From contig NZ_JNIF01000003.1 of NCBI RefSeq assembly GCF_000702445.1, positions 496,001 to 560,000 on the forward strand: a stretch of 64,000 bases of DNA, written 5' to 3'. The notes under the pieces were generated by a model that was not told the DNA's origin, did not search any database, and saw only the letters and a list, made by a program, of their open reading frames with translations. The DNA is from Bryobacter aggregatus MPL3. Its GTDB lineage: Bacteria; Acidobacteriota; Terriglobia; Bryobacterales; Bryobacteraceae. Positions 10,598 to 19,196 of this stretch are shown here, piece by piece. Position 1 is the stretch's first letter; the number at the start of each line of letters is the position of its first letter. The translations under genes and the position numbers were made by a program.

Positions 10598-12214
10598 ATG
10601 GCAACCGAACGCGTCGCACTAAAAAATACGGAACAAGAGGAGATTGACGCCCGGCGCTTGGCGCTGCGCTACCGCGCCGAATTTGTCGATCTCCGCAACG
10701 CCGACATCGATCACGATCTGTTCCGCACCGTGCAGGTGGACCTGATGTTCCGCTACAACTTCGTGCCCTTGCATGAGGATAGCGGCACCCTCGAGATCGC
10801 GATTGCCGACCCGCGCAATCTGCAGATGATCGACGAGCTGGCCTCCTTGCTGGGTAAGAAGCTGAAGATCAAGGTCGCCACGCTCAGTCAGATTTCCGAT
10901 CGTCTGAAAAAAACAGAACAAAGCCAACGCGTCCTCGAAGAAGTGACCGAAGGCTTCACGCTCGATGTGGTGGGCGACGATGACAATGCCGAAGAGAATC
11001 TCTCGATCGACAAGCTCAGCGCCGATAGCGACACCGCGCCGGTCATCCGTCTGGTGGATACGACGATCTTCAATGCGCTCGAGCGCCGGGCAAGCGACAT
11101 CCACATCGAAACGCGCGACCAGGAAGTAGCGATCAAGTACCGCATTGACGGCGTGCTGCAATACGCCATGCCGCCGATCGGCAAGGATTGGCACTCGGCG
11201 ATCATCTCGCGTATTAAGGTGATGAGCGAACTGGATATTGCTGAGCGGCGCGTGCCGCAGGATGGCCGTTTCCGCGTGCGCTACAAGGGCCGCCTCATCG
11301 ATTTCCGCGTCTCGATCATGCCCACGGTGCACGGCGAAGACAGCGTGCTGCGCGTGCTGGACAAAGAGAGCATGAGCGAAAAGTTCACCCGCCTCACCCT
11401 TGAGGTGGTGGGCTTCTCCCATCACGATGTCACCAAGTTCCGCCGCTACATCAAAGAGCCTTACGGCATGGTGCTGGTGACCGGACCCACCGGATCGGGC
11501 AAGACGACCACGCTGTACGCCGCCCTCAGCGAGATCCAGAACGACGAAGACAAGATCATCACCATCGAAGATCCGGTCGAATACCAGTTGAAGGGCATCA
11601 CCCAGATTCCGGTGAATGAGAAGAAGGGTTTGACCTTTGCCCGCGGATTGCGCAGCATTCTGCGCCATGATCCGGACAAGATCCTGGTTGGCGAAATCCG
11701 TGACCAGGAAACCGCGATCATCGCCATCAACGCGGCGCTCACCGGCCATCTCGTGTTCACCACCGTCCACGCAAACAACGTGTTTGACGTGCTGGGCCGC
11801 TTCCTCAATATGGGTGTCGAGGCCTACAACTTTGTCAGCGCCTTGAACTGCATCCTTGCCCAGCGCCTGGTGCGGCAAATCTGCCCGCATTGCAAGGTGC
11901 CGGTTGAGGTCTCCAATCAGGAACTGCTTGACAGCGGTCTTGAACTGGCCAAGTGGCGCGATGTCATTTATTACGAAGGCAAAGGCTGCTTTGAGTGCGG
12001 GGGCACCGGCTTCCGGGGCCGTACCGCGATTCATGAATTGCTCGACCTGACCGAAGAGATCCGCGAGCTGATTCTCGAGCGCAAGCCTACTTCGCACATC
12101 CGCATTGCCGCCCGCGCCCAGGGCATGACTACGCTTCGCGAAAGTGCGCTCGATCGCATGCGCGAGGGCATCACAACTCTGAAAGAAATCAACAAGGTGA
12201 CCTTCGTCGAATGA
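10598..12214 (+). CDS. gspE: GspE/PilB-type secretion ATPase
   Basis: The 538-residue protein has an N-terminal MshEN/GspE-N type domain (~1-110), then the hexameric ATPase domain. Walker A is GPTGSGKTTT (~297-306), followed by the Asp and His boxes and Walker B (KILVGEIRDQETA, ~360). A tetra-cysteine zinc site (CPHC at ~428 and CFEC at ~464) is present as in GspE/PilB. It powers pseudopilus or pilus assembly from the cytoplasmic side of the inner membrane. It begins immediately after the SLT gene, and its stop overlaps pilM by ATGA. The zinc site argues for an assembly ATPase rather than a PilT retraction ATPase. GspE versus PilB cannot be settled because no GspF, GspD or PilC is in the window. 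Confidence 0.93.
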   Translation: MATERVALKNTEQEEIDARRLALRYRAEFVDLRNADIDHDLFRTVQVDLMFRYNFVPLHEDSGTLEIAIADPRNLQMIDELASLLGKKLKIKVATLSQISDRLKKTEQSQRVLEEVTEGFTLDVVGDDDNAEENLSIDKLSADSDTAPVIRLVDTTIFNALERRASDIHIETRDQEVAIKYRIDGVLQYAMPPIGKDWHSAIISRIKVMSELDIAERRVPQDGRFRVRYKGRLIDFRVSIMPTVHGEDSVLRVLDKESMSEKFTRLTLEVVGFSHHDVTKFRRYIKEPYGMVLVTGPTGSGKTTTLYAALSEIQNDEDKIITIEDPVEYQLKGITQIPVNEKKGLTFARGLRSILRHDPDKILVGEIRDQETAIIAINAALTGHLVFTTVHANNVFDVLGRFLNMGVEAYNFVSALNCILAQRLVRQICPHCKVPVEVSNQELLDSGLELAKWRDVIYYEGKGCFECGGTGFRGRTAIHELLDLTEEIRELILERKPTSHIRIAARAQGMTTLRESALDRMREGITTLKEINKVTFVE

Positions 12215-13047
12215 GCCTCGTCGAGAAAATCCGCAACCTCATCGAAGACCCGCCGCCGGCCTATGCCTTTGAGATTGGCCCGGCGGGCCTTGCCCACTGG
12301 CAGAACGGCAGTACACGCTTTGAAGCCATGCCCGCGCCGAGCGTCGACGACATCGCCCATCTGCTGGCGCGCGTCGCTCCCCCCACGGGCAGCAAGAAGC
12401 GGGCCGCCGCCGTCATTCTGCCCGACAACGCGGCGCGCATCACACTGATGGACTTCGACATGTTTCCGCGCAAGGTGGAGGAGCAGTTGAGCCTCATCCG
12501 CTTTCGCCTGAAGCGCACGCTGCCCTTTGATATCGAAACCGCCGTGCTGCGCTACCAGACCATCCCGCGCGGCGGCAACAAAGTCGACCTGACGGTGGCG
12601 GCGATGGCCGTCGAAACCCTTGCTCCTTATGAGGCTGTATTCCGCGCCGCCGGCTTCCATCCGGGCTACATCACCATTGCCGGTTTGAGTGCGGCCAACC
12701 TCGCCCAGCCCAATACGATCACGCTGCGGTTGAGCGGGCTGACGCTCACCCTCACCCATCTCGAAGGCACAGAGCTCAAGCTGTTCCGCTGCCTCGAGCT
12801 TCAGGATGGCTCGCTCGACGAGATCCTCAACGTGCTCGACCCGACGCTTGCCTTTCTCGAAGATGAACGCAAGCTGAAGCCCGCCCGCATTGACCTGTGC
12901 GGCCTGGGCGAGCTGACCCAAACTCTCGAAACGCATCTCGCCGAAAACTGGCAGATCCCGGCGCAGGCATTGCGCAGCCGCGCCGGTGTGGTCGATGCCA
13001 ATAACGCCGGTCTGATGGGCTATCTCGAATCAGCGGGGGTCCAATAG
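12211..13047 (+). CDS. PilM/GspL-like assembly platform protein
   Basis: The 278-residue protein resembles the actin-like PilM/GspL cytoplasmic domain. It shows DFDMFPRKVEEQLSLIRFRLKRTLPFD, a region characteristic of PilM-like proteins that bind the PilN N-terminus. No membrane segment is present, as in PilM and unlike GspL. It is translationally coupled to gspE by ATGA and lies 2 bases from the PilN-like gene, matching the gspE-pilM-pilN-pilO order of pilus or type II secretion clusters. Sequence identity to well-known PilM is probably low, so I give family level only. Confidence 0.75.
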   Translation: MSLVEKIRNLIEDPPPAYAFEIGPAGLAHWQNGSTRFEAMPAPSVDDIAHLLARVAPPTGSKKRAAAVILPDNAARITLMDFDMFPRKVEEQLSLIRFRLKRTLPFDIETAVLRYQTIPRGGNKVDLTVAAMAVETLAPYEAVFRAAGFHPGYITIAGLSAANLAQPNTITLRLSGLTLTLTHLEGTELKLFRCLELQDGSLDEILNVLDPTLAFLEDERKLKPARIDLCGLGELTQTLETHLAENWQIPAQALRSRAGVVDANNAGLMGYLESAGVQ

Positions 13048-13049
13048 CG

Positions 13050-13622
13050 ATGCAGGGCAGAATTCCAATCAATCTTGCCAGCGAACCCTTCCGCCGGGAC
13101 CGCGCCATCCTGGTGGCCTCTGTGCTGCTGGGCCTGATCCTCGCCGGCTCTCTCGTGGGCCTGACGATGCTGGTGTTGCAGGAGCGCACGCGGGCCAAAG
13201 AAACGCGTGAAGCACTCGAAAAGCTGGAGCGCGCGCTCCGGGTACAATCAACCGAACAAGCAAAAGTCGACGGGGTTCTGCGTCTGGCGCAGAATTCCGA
13301 AGTGCTTGATCGCAACGTCTTTCTCAACACGCTGATCTCGCGCAAGGCCGTCAGTTGGACGCAGCTCTTTGCAGACCTCGAGAAGGTAATGCCGGGCACG
13401 GTGCGGCTGGTCAGCGTACGGCCGCAGATTACACCGCAGAATCAGGTGGTGCTCGACATGACGGTCGGCTCGCAGAGCACCGAACCGGTCATCGATATGC
13501 TGATGCGTCTGGAAGCTTCGCCGCTCTTTGGCGCCACCACCATCACAACTTTTCTGCCTCCGTCGCAGAATGAAACCCTTTACCGCTACAGACTGAGCGT
13601 GAGCTATGCGCCCAAACCTTAA
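13050..13622 (+). CDS. PilN-like inner-membrane assembly protein
   Basis: A short cytoplasmic N-terminus with INLASEPFRRDR, equivalent to the INLLPWR motif by which PilN binds PilM, precedes one transmembrane helix (residues ~20-43). A coiled coil (ERTRAKETREALEKLERAL) and a small periplasmic ferredoxin-like domain follow. This is the PilN topology and length (190 residues). It overlaps the PilO-like gene by 17 bases. In the family PilN and PilO form a heterodimer that aligns the assembly platform. Confidence 0.8.
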   Translation: MQGRIPINLASEPFRRDRAILVASVLLGLILAGSLVGLTMLVLQERTRAKETREALEKLERALRVQSTEQAKVDGVLRLAQNSEVLDRNVFLNTLISRKAVSWTQLFADLEKVMPGTVRLVSVRPQITPQNQVVLDMTVGSQSTEPVIDMLMRLEASPLFGATTITTFLPPSQNETLYRYRLSVSYAPKP

Positions 13623-14190
13623 ACTTCTTGCTCTCGATTGGCGCGATCCGCGTGTCTTCATGCGCGTGATTCTCGGCGTCCTCGTCGCCGGCAACCTGAT
13701 TGCGCTGTATATGTTGCTCTTTCCTCCCGGTGGGAGTCTGACGGAACTCGAGCAGCGCTATGTCACCGATCGCCAACGCAGCACAGCCCAAGCGGCGAAC
13801 CTTGAGCGCATGAAGGTACTTGCGGCAAAGGTGCAGGAAAGCCGGGTCGCAGGCGATAAGTTCTTCTCTTCCTACTTCATGGAGCGGCGAAAGGCGGCCA
13901 GTACCATCGTTGGCGAGCTTTCGAATCTCGCCAAACAGGCTGGCATCCACCCCCGCGAACACTCTTTTGCACTCGAACCAGTTGAAGGCTCAGAGGACCT
14001 TTCGATGATGACCGTCAACGGCTCCTACGAAGGCACCTATGCCGACCTCATCCAGTTCGTATACCGGGTGGACCGCAGTCCGCGCTTTCTCATCATCGAG
14101 AGCCTCACGGCTGCACCGCAGCAAAGCGCCGGGCTCCTCAACATCAGCATCCGCTTCCACGTCTTCGTGAGAGAGACTCCGGGAACTTAA
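13606..14190 (+). CDS. PilO-like inner-membrane assembly protein
   Basis: The 194-residue protein has a transmembrane helix at ~18-41, a coiled coil (LTELEQRYVTDRQRST onward) and a C-terminal domain with YEGTYADLIQFVYRVDRSPRFLIIESL, a segment typical of PilO/GspM-type proteins. The start overlaps the PilN-like gene end; the two are coupled. It should partner PilN in the periplasm. Confidence 0.8.
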   Translation: MRPNLKLLALDWRDPRVFMRVILGVLVAGNLIALYMLLFPPGGSLTELEQRYVTDRQRSTAQAANLERMKVLAAKVQESRVAGDKFFSSYFMERRKAASTIVGELSNLAKQAGIHPREHSFALEPVEGSEDLSMMTVNGSYEGTYADLIQFVYRVDRSPRFLIIESLTAAPQQSAGLLNISIRFHVFVRETPGT

Positions 14191-14193
14191 GCC

Positions 14194-14925
14194 ATGGGAC
14201 TCGAAATGAAATTCGGGGGTAGCTCCAAGCAGATGAAGTTCCTTGGTGCGCTCGGTGTCGTGCTCGCCGTCGTTCTTTACCTGAACTATTCTGGCGGCTC
14301 CGATACGCCCGCGCCCCCACGGCGCACCACCACAGCCATTCCCACTCCGGTTGCGCCCAACATCGCCCGGAGCACGCAGGAAAAGAAACGCGCGCAGGCA
14401 GACCGGAGAGCCCAGGAATTCCGGCCACGAGTAGGCCCCGCCCGTCCTGAAGACCGGCCCGACCCGATGACGGTAGACCCCACGCTGCGTCTGGACCAGC
14501 TCACGCGCCTCGAACGGGTGCAGATCAGCGGCGGCACTCGCAGCCTCTTTGATTTCTCGAATATCCCCAGCACCGGAGCTCCGGTCGCCAAGATTATCCC
14601 GGCGGTAAAACCCATCAAACCCAAAGTCTTCTACGGTCCGATGGAGAAACCGCCAGATCCGCCCAAAGTGGTCGTACAGAAGCCTCAGGCGCCGCCGATT
14701 CCGCTCAAGTTTTATGGCTTCACCACCTCGCCGCGCGGCACGACGGCAAAGCGGGGTTTCTTCCTCGACGGCGAGGCGATCATTGTCGCCTCGGAAGGCG
14801 AACTCATCAAGACGCGATATAAGGTGATCCGGATCGGCTTGGCGAACGTCACAATGGAAGATACGCAGTTTCAGCAGCAGCAGACGCTGCCGATCGTGCC
14901 AGATCCAAGCGGAGGAGGGTTCTAA
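14194..14925 (+). CDS. GspC/PilP-like periplasmic linker protein
   Basis: The 243-residue protein has one transmembrane helix (~14-33), a long Pro/Arg-rich linker and a C-terminal small beta domain (LKFYGFTTS, then FFLDGEAIIVASEGELI and YKVIRIGLANVTMED). That layout and the strand pattern fit the homology region of GspC and PilP, which connects the inner-membrane platform to the secretin. The assignment rests on pattern and operon position rather than a diagnostic motif. It starts three bases after the PilO-like stop and ends directly at the pseudopilin ATG. Confidence 0.62.
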   Translation: MGLEMKFGGSSKQMKFLGALGVVLAVVLYLNYSGGSDTPAPPRRTTTAIPTPVAPNIARSTQEKKRAQADRRAQEFRPRVGPARPEDRPDPMTVDPTLRLDQLTRLERVQISGGTRSLFDFSNIPSTGAPVAKIIPAVKPIKPKVFYGPMEKPPDPPKVVVQKPQAPPIPLKFYGFTTSPRGTTAKRGFFLDGEAIIVASEGELIKTRYKVIRIGLANVTMEDTQFQQQQTLPIVPDPSGGGF

Positions 14926-16212
14926 ATGGTGATTCATCCGGTGCGACGCCAGTCCGAGCGCGGCTATGCGCTGCTCTTTGTCTTCGTCCTCTCCGCCATC
15001 ACCGCCCTCACGCTCTATAACGAGCTCCCACGCGCGGTTTTTGAAAGCCAGCGCGCCAAGGAAGAGCTCCTCCTCAGCCGGGGCCAGGAGTACCAGCGGG
15101 GTATCCAGTTGTATTACCGCAAACTCCGGAAGTACCCGACCACAATCGAAGATCTGGAGAAGACCAGCGGAGTGCGCTTCCTGCGCCGCCGCTACGTCGA
15201 TCCCTTCTCCGGCAAAGACGATTGGCGATTTGTACATATCAATGCGAGCGGCCAGTACACGGACTCGAAGGTAATCAAGCCGCCTTCGGCCACCAATGGC
15301 GCCAATGGCACCAACAGCCTGTCCACGAGCATCACCCAGGAACAGCCTAAGAACGACGCGAACGATCCGGCGCTCAAGCGCCGCGCCAGCGATACGAGCG
15401 CGGTTGAGATTGGCAGCAATGGCAGTAATGGAGCTGTTGCTCCCACCGATCCTTATGCGCCGCCCAGCGCAGTGCCTGCGCCTTATCCAGGCGCCAATCC
15501 CACTAACGTCAGCAACCCCAACAATTACAATCCGGCTGGAATGGGAGGCGTCGGCAGCGTGGGTTCTGGGAGCAGCGCCCCGGGCGGTATGGGTTCTGGG
15601 AGTGTTGGCGTCGGTGGAGTCGGCAGCGTCGGAACCAGTTATCCCGCAGCCGCCGCACAACTCCAGAGCGGCGGCCACATGATCCAACCCAATGGCCAGC
15701 GGCCCCTGACGCCGGAACAATTGAATCCTGCGATGAATATCATCCAGGGACTCTTGACCACCCCACGCACGCCGCCGCCCGGTATCGTAAGTGGAAATAA
15801 CGGCGGAACAAGTGGCGGGACCAGCGGCGGATTCGGCCCCAACCCGAATGCGCCGATCACGAACCCGAGCGGCACCTTTCTTGCCAGCGGCCCGGCAGCC
15901 AATGGCGGAAATGGGCAACTGGGCGGTGGCGGCATCGCTGGCGTGGCCAGCAAGCATGAAGGCCGTGGCATCAAGCTGGTGAACGATCGCGATCGCATCG
16001 AAGAGTGGGAATTTATCTACGACTACGCGAAAGATCGCGGCGGCCGTCCAGGATCGAATACCCAGTCCCAACAATCGGGCATCAATCCAAACTCCCCGCT
16101 GGGCAATACGGGTAGCAATTCCGGCTTTGGCAATAACGGCATGAATCAGAATGGCGGCAACTTTGGCGGTGGACAGAATAACCAGAGCGGCTTCGGCCAG
16201 ACTCGCCGCTAG
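14926..16212 (+). CDS. Pseudopilin-like protein with long Asn/Gly-rich region
   Basis: An N-terminal prepilin-like start (ERG at 11-13, then YALLFVFVLSAITALTL) leads into an amphipathic helix with SQRAKEELLLSRGQEYQRGIQLYYRK and KYPTTIEDL, a pattern of GspG-like pseudopilins of secretion systems. Position 5 after the cleavage glycine is Phe, not the Glu needed for ordered assembly; the minor pseudopilin GspK also lacks that Glu. From ~115 to 428 the protein is mostly low-complexity Asn/Gly/Ser/Pro. An island near 335-365 (GRGIKLVNDRDRIEEWEFIYDY) looks folded. The protein is 428 residues, two to three times the normal pseudopilin length. Last gene of the operon, followed by a hairpin. Confidence 0.72.
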   Translation: MVIHPVRRQSERGYALLFVFVLSAITALTLYNELPRAVFESQRAKEELLLSRGQEYQRGIQLYYRKLRKYPTTIEDLEKTSGVRFLRRRYVDPFSGKDDWRFVHINASGQYTDSKVIKPPSATNGANGTNSLSTSITQEQPKNDANDPALKRRASDTSAVEIGSNGSNGAVAPTDPYAPPSAVPAPYPGANPTNVSNPNNYNPAGMGGVGSVGSGSSAPGGMGSGSVGVGGVGSVGTSYPAAAAQLQSGGHMIQPNGQRPLTPEQLNPAMNIIQGLLTTPRTPPPGIVSGNNGGTSGGTSGGFGPNPNAPITNPSGTFLASGPAANGGNGQLGGGGIAGVASKHEGRGIKLVNDRDRIEEWEFIYDYAKDRGGRPGSNTQSQQSGINPNSPLGNTGSNSGFGNNGMNQNGGNFGGGQNNQSGFGQTRR

Positions 16213-16341: not shown

Positions 16342-16890
16342 CTAGAGGGCGACGTAGCCTCGGCGAATTCCCTGAGTAACCGCCTCGGTGCGCGACCCCG
16401 CATTCAGCTTTGACATCAGTGAACTGACATGGAACTTCACCGTATGCTCGGTGATGCTCAGCCTCCAGGCGATTTCTTTGTTCCCTACCCCCTCAGCAAG
16501 TAAGCGCAGAACCTCGCGCTCCCGCGCCGTCAACGTTGTGTCGCTCATCGGCAACTGAGCGGCGGGCCAGGACTCGGCTTCCTGCGCAGGCAGAACCAGC
16601 AATCCGGCCGCAGCGGCTTCGAGCGCGGCCCGGATCTCGATCGGACTCGAGTTCGGCGGCAATACACCGCGCGCTCCCTGGCGGAGCATACTACTCGCCG
16701 ACTGGTGCGTCAACAACACCACCGGTAGCGGCGGGGGATCATTATCGATCTCATCAAACTGACGGTCCGACAATAAAACATCGGCAATCTCGCCTGATTT
16801 CATCGCTTGAAACCCGACCTTCTCTTCCAACAACGTCCGAAGACCCGCTTCTACAACAGGGTTCGATGCGTCAATCCGTACGCGTGTCAT
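16342..16890 (-). CDS. LuxR/NarL-type response regulator with degraded receiver
   Basis: The C-terminal HTH is clear (LTAREREVLRLLAEGVGNKEIAWRL followed by TEHTVKFHVSSLMSKL). The N-terminal ~110 residues keep the NarL receiver outline (PVVEAGLRTLLEE, ADVLLSDRQF, PVVLLTHQS, ARGVLPPNSSP). However, the acidic pair after strand 1 is replaced by IDAS and the conserved Lys before the last helix is Pro. Phosphorylation-dependent switching is therefore doubtful. The start is the ATG that overlaps the protease stop (ATGA); the frame is open further upstream but only antisense to the motifs of the protease gene. It is the third gene of an operon with two HtrA-like proteins. Confidence 0.82.
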   Translation of the reverse strand: MTRVRIDASNPVVEAGLRTLLEEKVGFQAMKSGEIADVLLSDRQFDEIDNDPPPLPVVLLTHQSASSMLRQGARGVLPPNSSPIEIRAALEAAAAGLLVLPAQEAESWPAAQLPMSDTTLTAREREVLRLLAEGVGNKEIAWRLSITEHTVKFHVSSLMSKLNAGSRTEAVTQGIRRGYVAL

Positions 16891-17756
16891 GCGGCAGCAG
16901 CGATCCTCCCTTCGGCACCCGGGCTCAATGCAATCACAACTTCCCGCGGCACAGCCTTTCCGTTGCGCAGGAATTCCAGATGCACAAGCCCTCCTTTCAA
17001 CAGACGGACACTCCACTCATCCAGTGACGAAAAGATTTGACCGTCCATTCCAATTATGACGTCACCAGGTCGCAAAGACGCCACATCTGCCCGTCCATTT
17101 GGCGCTACTTGTTGGATGCGCAAACCCACTGCACGACGCGCACCAACTCGTAATGGTACTGTCTCAACGGTAACGCCCAAAAGCGGCTCGTCCGGCTGCC
17201 CTGCCCGCTTTACAAAAGCGGCGACTTCATTCGACGGAACGGCAAGCCCCAGCGGACCAGCAACCATCGTATTGATGCCCACGACGGCCCCCGTCGAATT
17301 GGCCAAAGCGCCTCCGGAATTTCCAGGGGCCAAACGGATATTGGCTTGCACCCAATGCTTTTCCCCAAGTCCCTGCAGCGGCCCTAGCCCGTGGACCACA
17401 CCGGTGGATAAGGCTCCGACAAAGCCCAGCGGATTTCCGACCGCTAGCACTTCCTCCCCCTCGCGGAGCAACGAAGAATCCGCCCAGGCTGGAACCGGCA
17501 TGGCCGTCCGCTCCACCGCCAGCAGAACAAGATCACGGTATCCATCACGCCGCAGCAGTCGGGCGGGCATCACCTCGCCGTCCCAGAACTCAACCTCCAC
17601 CCGGTCGCGCGTCACCACATGCGCATTCGAGATGAGCTTTCCGTCCGCACTCCACACGACTCCGGAACCAGAACCCGCGCGTCCCCCGTCCACCCGGACC
17701 TGCACCGTCGAACGCCGCAGTTGTTCTGCAATTTCACCGAAACCGGGCCCGCTCAC
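16887..17756 (-). CDS. HtrA-like trypsin-fold protease with PDZ domain, no signal peptide
   Basis: The 289-residue protein contains a trypsin-like domain with an intact triad: His in ISNAHVV (H46), Asp in YRDLVLL (D75) and Ser in APGNSGGAL (S147). A PDZ domain follows at ~190-275 (LRIQQVAPNGRADVASLRPGDVIIGMDG). HtrA proteins are usually exported or membrane-anchored; here there is no signal peptide or membrane helix, so a cytoplasmic place is likely. It overlaps the upstream HtrA-like gene and the downstream regulator gene by 4 bases each. Confidence 0.88.
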   Translation of the reverse strand: MSGPGFGEIAEQLRRSTVQVRVDGGRAGSGSGVVWSADGKLISNAHVVTRDRVEVEFWDGEVMPARLLRRDGYRDLVLLAVERTAMPVPAWADSSLLREGEEVLAVGNPLGFVGALSTGVVHGLGPLQGLGEKHWVQANIRLAPGNSGGALANSTGAVVGINTMVAGPLGLAVPSNEVAAFVKRAGQPDEPLLGVTVETVPLRVGARRAVGLRIQQVAPNGRADVASLRPGDVIIGMDGQIFSSLDEWSVRLLKGGLVHLEFLRNGKAVPREVVIALSPGAEGRIAAAA

Positions 17757-18637
17757 GCAACCTGCCTCGCCGAAGGCCGCTGTCCGATTTCGACAACAAT
17801 CTCCAACTCCTGGCCAGCCCGGTAGACACGTAATGGAACCTGCTTGCCCACATGCGGCGGCTCGAGAAATTCCTGAATCGCCGCAAAATCGATCGCATGT
17901 TGCCCGCCAATCGCCACAATCACATCACCCACCATCAGGTGCGCGAGGGCGGAGGGCGAATTGGGCTCGACATTCAACACAATCATCCCGGCAGGCTGCG
18001 GCACCGGTTGGAGGCCCACTCCCAGATAGCCACGGGAAACACCACCAAACTGGTCGAGGGTCGTTACAAAATCATTCAGGTTCGATGCCGGAATCACCAC
18101 GTTGACGCCGCGCACCAATCCGCCACTCATCAACCCCAGAATCGAGCCATCCGCACGCAACGCAACCCCTCCCGAAACACCTGGCGCTACTGGGATGTCC
18201 ACTTGAATGAAGTGATCCATTTTCCCACCCTTCCAGGTACGCCATGCTCCCGACAGAGAGCTCAGGATACCCATCGACGCGTGAGGGCCTGTGTCGGGAG
18301 CCCTGGACACGCCAATCACCAGTTCACCCAGTGTGGCTCCACCCGCCAATGGGAGCGGCGGGAGATCCATATAGGGAATCTCCAACCCGAAGAGCGCCAA
18401 ATCACTTCCGGGGTCACGGCCGAGGAGGGATGCGGCCGTGACCTCGCCGGAAGGGAGGAGGATTTCAGCCTCCCCATCTAATTCGACGCCGTGATCGACG
18501 GTTACGATTCGGTGATTATCAATCAGCAGTCCGCTCTGGAAACCTTTTCGGCGGGATGAGACGGCGGCCACCCGGGGGGCGGCGGTGTTTACGATCTCAG
18601 CAATGGTCTGACTCAGTTCGATCAACGGATTCTGCAT
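17753..18637 (-). CDS. HtrA-like trypsin-fold protein with PDZ domain and altered Ser motif
   Basis: This 294-residue protein is first in the operon. A trypsin-like domain shows His in VTVDHGVEL (H49), Asp in PGSDLALF (D79) and Ser in APGVSGGVAL (S155), so triad residues remain. The usual Asn of GNSGG is Val and the region around His is atypical. A PDZ domain follows at ~200-285 (IVLNVEPNSPSALAHLMVGDVIVAIGG). No signal peptide is seen. The ATG is preceded by GAGAG at suitable spacing. The pair may form a mixed HtrA oligomer in which this member is regulatory or of reduced activity; this is inference. Confidence 0.85.
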   Translation of the reverse strand: MQNPLIELSQTIAEIVNTAAPRVAAVSSRRKGFQSGLLIDNHRIVTVDHGVELDGEAEILLPSGEVTAASLLGRDPGSDLALFGLEIPYMDLPPLPLAGGATLGELVIGVSRAPDTGPHASMGILSSLSGAWRTWKGGKMDHFIQVDIPVAPGVSGGVALRADGSILGLMSGGLVRGVNVVIPASNLNDFVTTLDQFGGVSRGYLGVGLQPVPQPAGMIVLNVEPNSPSALAHLMVGDVIVAIGGQHAIDFAAIQEFLEPPHVGKQVPLRVYRAGQELEIVVEIGQRPSARQVA

Positions 18638-18776
18638 TTTACTCTCTGTCAGGCTGGTGGCCTAGGATTTTAGGATGCGCTTCTTGGCCGCAAATTACCT
18701 CGGACAATGGACTAGTCTGCGACTGGCAATTTGGCTAGGTGTTCCCAAACCTCGCTTACAATGAAGAAGAACAACC

Positions 18777-19196
18777 ATGGCCACTGAAGCAAAAGTTGAA
18801 GTTCCTACGGCGGCTCCCACGCAAAGCTGGGTGCTCCCGGTGCTGCTCACCTGGATCGCGCCCGGATCTGGCTATTTCTTCTTGAAAAGCCCGGTACGCG
18901 GGGCTCTCATGGGTGGCGCTTCTCTTCTGATGTTCCTGCTCGGGCTGTTGATGCGGGGCGCTTTCTTTGAGGCGCAAACCGGCGACTTGCTGACGACGGT
19001 CATCTATTGCGGTGGCTTCGTTTGCAATCTGGCCACCGGCGGCTTGTACTTTCTCGCCAAAGCCTTTAATTACAACGCTCCCGATGTCGCCGGACATGTC
19101 GTCGACTACGGCACCAAGTTCCTGGTCGGCGCGGGCCTGATCAATGTTCTTGCCATGGTGGACGTATTCGAAATTGCTACCGGACGGAAGCGTTAG
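18777..19196 (+). CDS. Small integral membrane protein (DUF6677-like)
   Basis: The 139-residue protein has about four hydrophobic segments. It starts with a soluble Ala/Pro-rich tail, then WVLPVLLTWIAPGSGYFFL, a motif seen in acidobacterial small membrane proteins that I recall as DUF6677 (not checked). Function unknown. The ATG has a purine-rich leader (GAAGAAGAAC). A second small membrane protein follows after 11 bases, so the two likely form a transcription unit divergent from the HtrA-like operon. Confidence 0.7.
   Translation: MATEAKVEVPTAAPTQSWVLPVLLTWIAPGSGYFFLKSPVRGALMGGASLLMFLLGLLMRGAFFEAQTGDLLTTVIYCGGFVCNLATGGLYFLAKAFNYNAPDVAGHVVDYGTKFLVGAGLINVLAMVDVFEIATGRKR

Follow-up and report, generated by a model that had tools for sequence, protein, structure and literature searches.

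What does a transcription regulator that has lost its phosphorylation signature respond to, when the genes with which it shares an operon encode two HtrA-like proteins that carry no signal for export? The question is raised by three genes on the minus strand of the window (the whole stretch of DNA that was analyzed, 64,000 nt in length; the coordinates of its features are positions within it). H1 (17753-18637, minus strand; 294 aa, ATG start) and H2 (16887-17756, minus strand; 289 aa, GTG start) are signal-less and HtrA-like, H1 with a Trypsin_2 domain and one PDZ domain, H2 a protease of the same Trypsin_2 and PDZ make-up with a full triad and GNSGG. R (16342-16890, minus strand; 182 aa, ATG start) is a regulator of the NarL/FixJ type, with a degenerate (pseudo-)receiver and an intact LuxR HTH. 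The 4-base overlaps between all three genes that had been described in a first-pass annotation of this DNA are borne out by the gene coordinates: H1 and H2 share GTGA at 17753-17756, and H2 and R share ATGA at 16887-16890. The latter overlap makes it probable that H2 and R are translationally coupled.

Pfam recognizes Trypsin_2 and PDZ in both H1 and H2 (the PDZ domain of H2 as PF00595, above cut-off), and by NCBIfam both resemble Do-family HtrAs but, at 114 and 154 bits, stay far below a cut-off of 416. The predicted structure of H1 (pLDDT 89.8) has DegQ, DegS, Deg1 and AlgW as its nearest folds. The HtrA/Deg (S1C) proteases DegS, DegQ, AlgW and plant Deg1 have the same fold, a trypsin domain followed by one PDZ domain, and the active site of H2 is complete. 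Unlike these proteases, H1 and H2 have neither a signal nor a membrane anchor and fall far below the NCBIfam cut-offs, while H1 never has the Asn of GNSGG (0/98 copies) and is often without the triad.

The lack of a signal peptide, to which the first-pass annotation had drawn attention as a departure from classical HtrA, holds for the window copies and for nearly all of their relatives. The most hydrophobic 19-residue N-terminal segment scores at most 1.66 in 98/98 H1 and exceeds 1.6 in only one of 65 H2; no hydrophobic leader was found in these 98 H1 or in 64 of the 65 H2 copies. Within the phylum, Do-type HtrAs of the canonical kind, which the control set included, mostly score above 1.6 in the corresponding segment. 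Almost every HtrA that has been studied is extracytoplasmic, and a survey places a signal peptide or a membrane helix in 88.84% of PDZ proteins (PMC6411480), so that one might think of H1 and H2 as being exported by an unrecognized route and acting in the envelope as other HtrAs do. The leader counts just given, together with an almost constant partnership with a DNA-binding protein of the cytoplasm (described below), make this very improbable, and the same two observations support the proposal, also made in the first pass, that the module is cytoplasmic. A second signal-less HtrA-like class (~310-370 aa, N terminus LLDAYSxAV) is common in Acidobacteriota outside the module (L011, L025, L031, L104, L114, L117 and others), and the signal-less state is therefore not unique to the H1/H2 operon; the H2 proteins of L072, L074, L075 and L201/L204 resemble this second class.

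The C terminus of R is a GerE domain (LuxR HTH; Pfam, 2.5e-21). Its receiver is too degenerate for Pfam, but the predicted fold of the window protein is that of NarL/FixJ, the receiver fold included, with VpsT among the matches. R is, then, the LuxR-type regulator with a receiver outline that it had been taken for. It does lack the acidic pair (positions 8-9) and the switch Lys (position 78), as had also been claimed; the phospho-acceptor Asp, D42, which had gone unmentioned, is present. Among R copies with a receiver, position 8 is acidic in 0/81 and the switch Lys occurs in 0/81; the phospho-acceptor Asp is found in 33/81 (the window's D42 among them), and the full set of phosphorylation residues is never present in the family. 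In several lineages R is a protein of 86-125 aa that has lost the receiver entirely and is still encoded beside H1, with the same tail. One could read the Asp of the window and of those 33 copies as the mark of a response regulator that a distant kinase or small phosphodonors still phosphorylate. The uniform absence of the switch Lys and of the position-8 acidic residue, the absence of the Asp from the majority and the loss of the receiver in some lineages leave this with very little likelihood. With neither of the two residues in any copy, and with receiver-less forms of R at hand, the input of R must come from elsewhere, which supports the earlier suggestion of a control other than receiver phosphorylation.

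That input might be a small molecule. VpsT is a pseudo-receiver regulator that binds c-di-GMP, and other inputs are known for pseudo-receivers of the NarL/CsgD/VpsT kind. A ligand bound in the same way by the pseudo-receiver of R would control the operon, with H1 and H2 a mere output, a cytoplasmic pair of protease and chaperone whose synthesis follows the appearance of the ligand; the place of VpsT among the fold matches fits this, as does the palindrome described below, in that it supports action of R on its own operon. Against it, no conserved ligand-binding motif stood out in the receiver part of R, and the R proteins of 86-125 aa keep their place beside H1 and their tail with no receiver in which to bind anything. 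Control by a ligand is regarded here as unlikely.

The pairing of R with HtrA-like proteins has a history that extends well beyond the window. An H1 profile run against 297 Acidobacteriota genomes picked out 10 genomes at more than 300 bits, separated by a sharp gap from the next match at 229, and R lies beside H1 in all 10 of these true H1 loci. In the window's family, 62 of 200 genomes have an H1 above 300 bits, and R is present in 29/29 newly fetched loci. A cross-phylum scan of 84,980 species genomes used H1 alone as the query, in the form of a narrower H1 alignment (the broad profile not having a sufficiently conserved stretch). It yielded loci labelled as Acidobacteriota, Pseudomonadota (Paraburkholderia, Caballeronia, Burkholderia, Pandoraea, Pararobbsia, Bradyrhizobium and Microvirga), Cyanobacteriota, Chloroflexota, Eremiobacterota and others; some of these labels are those of metagenome bins and may be wrong, but those of the proteobacterial strains with names belong to isolates, as does at least one of the cyanobacterial labels. 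Gene order in the 80 loci found in this way is H1-H2-R (42), H1-R (28), H1-R-H2 (3) or H1-H2 (7, five of them cut by contig ends). R thus adjoins H1 in 73/80 loci, and H2 is missing from 28/80. Since R is beside H1 in nearly all loci and H2 varies, the core of the module is H1 plus R, and H2 is optional. No flanking genes other than H1, R and the optional H2 are common to the module loci. Absence of a conserved gene order in relatives had been named beforehand as the outcome that would speak against a module; synteny is kept across Acidobacteriota and beyond. The H1-R pair is far more than a local oddity, recurring in distant soil and symbiotic bacteria. Where it lies on plasmids, in Paraburkholderia sprentiae and in Bradyrhizobium, its annotation goes no further than 'S1C family serine protease' and 'LuxR / response regulator', and no paper on the module was found in the open-access literature that was searched, subscription papers and preprints aside.

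The first-pass annotation saw trypsin triad residues and a PDZ domain in both HtrA-like proteins. This is right for the window's H1 and H2 and for the H2 family, but not for the H1 family at large. H2 has the triad in 64 of 65 copies and the Asn of GNSGG in 60 of 65 (a few copies, such as that of L064, are shortened). The triad of H1 is complete in 67 of 98 copies and lost in 31. The window H1 retains H49, D79 and S155 and has GVSGG in the place of GNSGG, as had been noted; whether it is active cannot be told from its sequence. Pro takes the place of the triad His in four of the five other sequenced copies from the genus that have H1, Glu-Asp-Glu/Gln replaces the triad in Bradyrhizobium and Microvirga, and Tyr-Asp-Leu does so in Cyanobacteria; all three residues are lost in L072, L074, L075 and L076. 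The tree requires at least 10 changes of the triad, of which strongly supported branches force at least five. With dN/dS values of 0.03-0.25, the triad-less H1 proteins are under purifying selection. The PDZ domain of H1 (PDZ_2 match, residues 203-283; 17789-18031, minus strand) has a peptide-binding loop, Y204-L205-G206-V207 in the window, that is conserved in 66/67 triad-intact and in 31/31 triad-lost copies. The corresponding PDZ loop of DegS is YIGI, and the loop of H1 is of this DegS YIGI/AlgW WLGV type. The loop residues with which the PDZ domain of AlgW binds its ligand have been described (PMC8545111). This pattern of loss and retention makes H1 look more like a partner that binds than like a further protease.

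These facts bear on the suggestion, made in the first pass, that the proteases themselves govern the regulator. Coupling of R with the HtrA-like proteins is strongly supported by their co-inheritance and by a shared predicted operator; the part of the suggestion that did not stand is protease action on R as a general mechanism. Regulated proteolysis would have H1 and/or H2 cleave or degrade R, with stress diverting the protease from it. The retained triad of H2, its overlap and probable translational coupling with R, and the precedent of mycobacterial HspR, which is degraded once its chaperone has let it go (PMC10415612), all speak for it. H2 is, however, absent from the 28 loci already referred to, and in some of these H1 is triad-less: the Bradyrhizobium modules consist of R and an H1 with Glu-Asp-Glu/Gln, have no H2 within 4 kb, and are therefore left with no module protease. 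Since some modules have no intact protease among their own genes, the module cannot as a general rule work by cleaving R, and we think regulated proteolysis improbable. The frequent absence of H2, together with loss of the H1 triad in several of the same modules, makes PDZ binding more likely than cleavage to be the link that is conserved: R would more likely be held than cut.

R has an end that could be held. In the window it terminates in Tyr-Val-Ala-Leu-COOH (16345-16356, minus strand), a hydrophobic-x-hydrophobic tail and a candidate PDZ ligand. Every one of 91 module R proteins ends exactly four residues past an invariant Gly and is hydrophobic at positions 0 and -2. It is hydrophobic C termini that the PDZ domains of HtrA proteins recognize, and these same two positions are decisive (PMC8545111). 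The same tail shape is found in six of 35 non-module GerE (LuxR-HTH) proteins (38 counted, minus three module members), close non-module relatives included; the feature is therefore enriched rather than unique, and conservation of the tail may come in part from the family.

We propose that the three genes constitute an autonomous, autoregulated cytoplasmic protein-quality-control unit. R, being without a working phosphorylation input, would have its HtrA-like partner as input instead: free H1 would hold R, the PDZ domain gripping the hydrophobic C-terminal tail; damaged proteins with exposed hydrophobic ends would fill the PDZ domain, R would be released, and the output of the operon would change, the direction of the control and the nature of the signal being conjectural. 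H2, where present, would be the active protease that clears such proteins, and H1 the reader, having partly or wholly given up catalysis. R would bind a palindrome before H1 and so control essentially its own operon. To autoregulation of this chaperone-titration type, in which the PDZ domain of H1 reads the tail of R and R controls the operon through the palindrome, we assign a rough probability of 0.45. A broader proposition is put forward more tentatively still: in a widespread and undescribed signaling unit, a cytoplasmic HtrA that can dispense with catalysis would read the free C terminus of a transcription factor by its PDZ domain, and exposed protein ends in the cytoplasm would compete with the regulator and thereby set transcription. 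Besides the occurrence of the tail shape outside the module, three observations count against the autoregulation model. A genus member (G301/L062, 4231-4779) has a solitary R, 71% identical to that of the window and with the same tail, and neither H1 nor H2; L153 and L175 carry H1 and H2 without R; and the H1 proteins of Burkholderiales retain the triad and may be active proteases.

The predicted operator, a 16-bp palindrome (CTAGCCAAATTGCCAG in minus-strand reading), is at 18723-18738, 101 bp upstream of the H1 start. Upstream alignments made clade by clade have footprints such as CTACCCGTTCGGGTGG in Burkholderiales and CTAGCCAATTGGGTAG in the window's genus, and the consensus of the palindromic 16-mer is roughly YTRSCC-RWWY-GGSYRR. 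In a leave-one-out analysis of representatives less than 60% identical, it is found upstream of H1 at p<=0.05 in 35 of 40, but the seed had been picked after inspecting the sequences, so that a split test provides the cleaner figure. There the motif was seeded with sites from Burkholderiales alone and trained on one half of the remaining representatives. Of the 20 in the held-out half, 16-18 reach p<=0.05 when compared with other windows, and 15-17 do so when compared with dinucleotide shuffles. The matrix made from Burkholderiales alone recovers 19 of 39. The clearest failure is L175, a locus without R. At the DNA level, the module (its linkage and its palindrome) is well supported.

Allowing at most one mismatch, the palindrome has 10 sites in the 5.75 Mb genome, nine of which are inside long open frames, the sole exception being the module's own; a reversed control pattern is commoner, with 47 sites. 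The sites thus give no sign of a wider regulon, and R looks like a local regulator. Judging by where they lie, R seems to act on the operon that encodes it, and it may act too on the divergent neighbor, a DUF6677 protein gene at 18777-19196 (plus strand): the palindrome sits between this gene and H1, and the gene might therefore be co-regulated in the window's genus.

What is legible in the sequences themselves comprises the linkage across phyla, the conserved palindrome, a phosphorylation signature that R has lost, H1 triads that have gone while the gene stays under purifying selection, and the conservation of the PDZ loop and of the tail of R. The first-pass annotation is confirmed in what it observed; its interpretation, partly supported, was right in outline.

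An autoregulated quality-control operon is a known kind of thing; the novelty is real and lies in the parts that are used and in their spread. HspR-DnaK-type feedback circuits likewise have an operon-local regulator and an inverted-repeat site before their own quality-control operon (binding by R being predicted in the present case), and DnaK binds the C-terminal region of HspR, the repressor of its own operon, as a co-repressor (PMC10415612). In contrast, the present module would have an HtrA-like PDZ protein in place of Hsp70 and a NarL-type regulator in place of HspR, and its H1-R binding is something that we only infer. In the DegS-RseA-sigmaE and AlgW-MucA envelope stress pathways transcription changes in response to hydrophobic C termini that an HtrA PDZ domain senses (PMC8545111), much as is proposed for H1. 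There, however, a periplasmic sensor cuts an anti-sigma factor, whereas the module appears to have both partners in the cytoplasm, and its presumed sensor is in many cases catalytically dead. With the pseudo-receiver regulators of the NarL/FixJ type, such as BldM, WhiI, CsgD and VpsT, R shares the overall fold, the LuxR HTH and the loss of phosphorylation residues; unlike them, it has a fixed genetic partner of the HtrA type, a receiver that is fully lost in some lineages, and an invariant short hydrophobic tail. A 2025 review of pseudo-receivers calls the switching of such regulators a mystery and makes no mention of HtrA (PMC12632262). With the presumed partner encoded next door in many bacteria, culturable Paraburkholderia and Bradyrhizobium among them, and with an operator predicted, the question of switching becomes directly testable. 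If true, the proposal would mean that a pseudo-receiver regulator of bacteria can be switched by a partner protein, and that HtrA has a role in the cytoplasm that is independent of proteolysis.

Several smaller matters can be added. Identity of the operon as a defense system was rejected, PADLOC having given weak generic matches alone (RT-protease, CARF). The Ala-Ala-COOH end of H2 was considered as a degron and rejected: it is not seen where H2 is without a following overlapping R gene (L169, L201), and its frequency where R does overlap probably just follows from the ribosome site of R and the overlap. Convergent with the operon, at 12211-16212 (plus strand), are genes that look like an assembly set of the PilM/PilN/PilO type, serving a type IV pilus or else type II secretion (the PilN match is weak); the set ends with a very Gly/Asn-rich 428-aa protein that has no Pfam match. 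In another Acidobacteriota family (f25), R-like regulators occur without HtrA-like neighbors in L123 (G029), L124 (G286) and L125 (G254); in two of the three the C terminus has a similar tail. In two members of the window's genus (L132 and L133, 4882-5088), an internal deletion has left H2 as a 67-codon in-frame remnant between H1 and an intact R.
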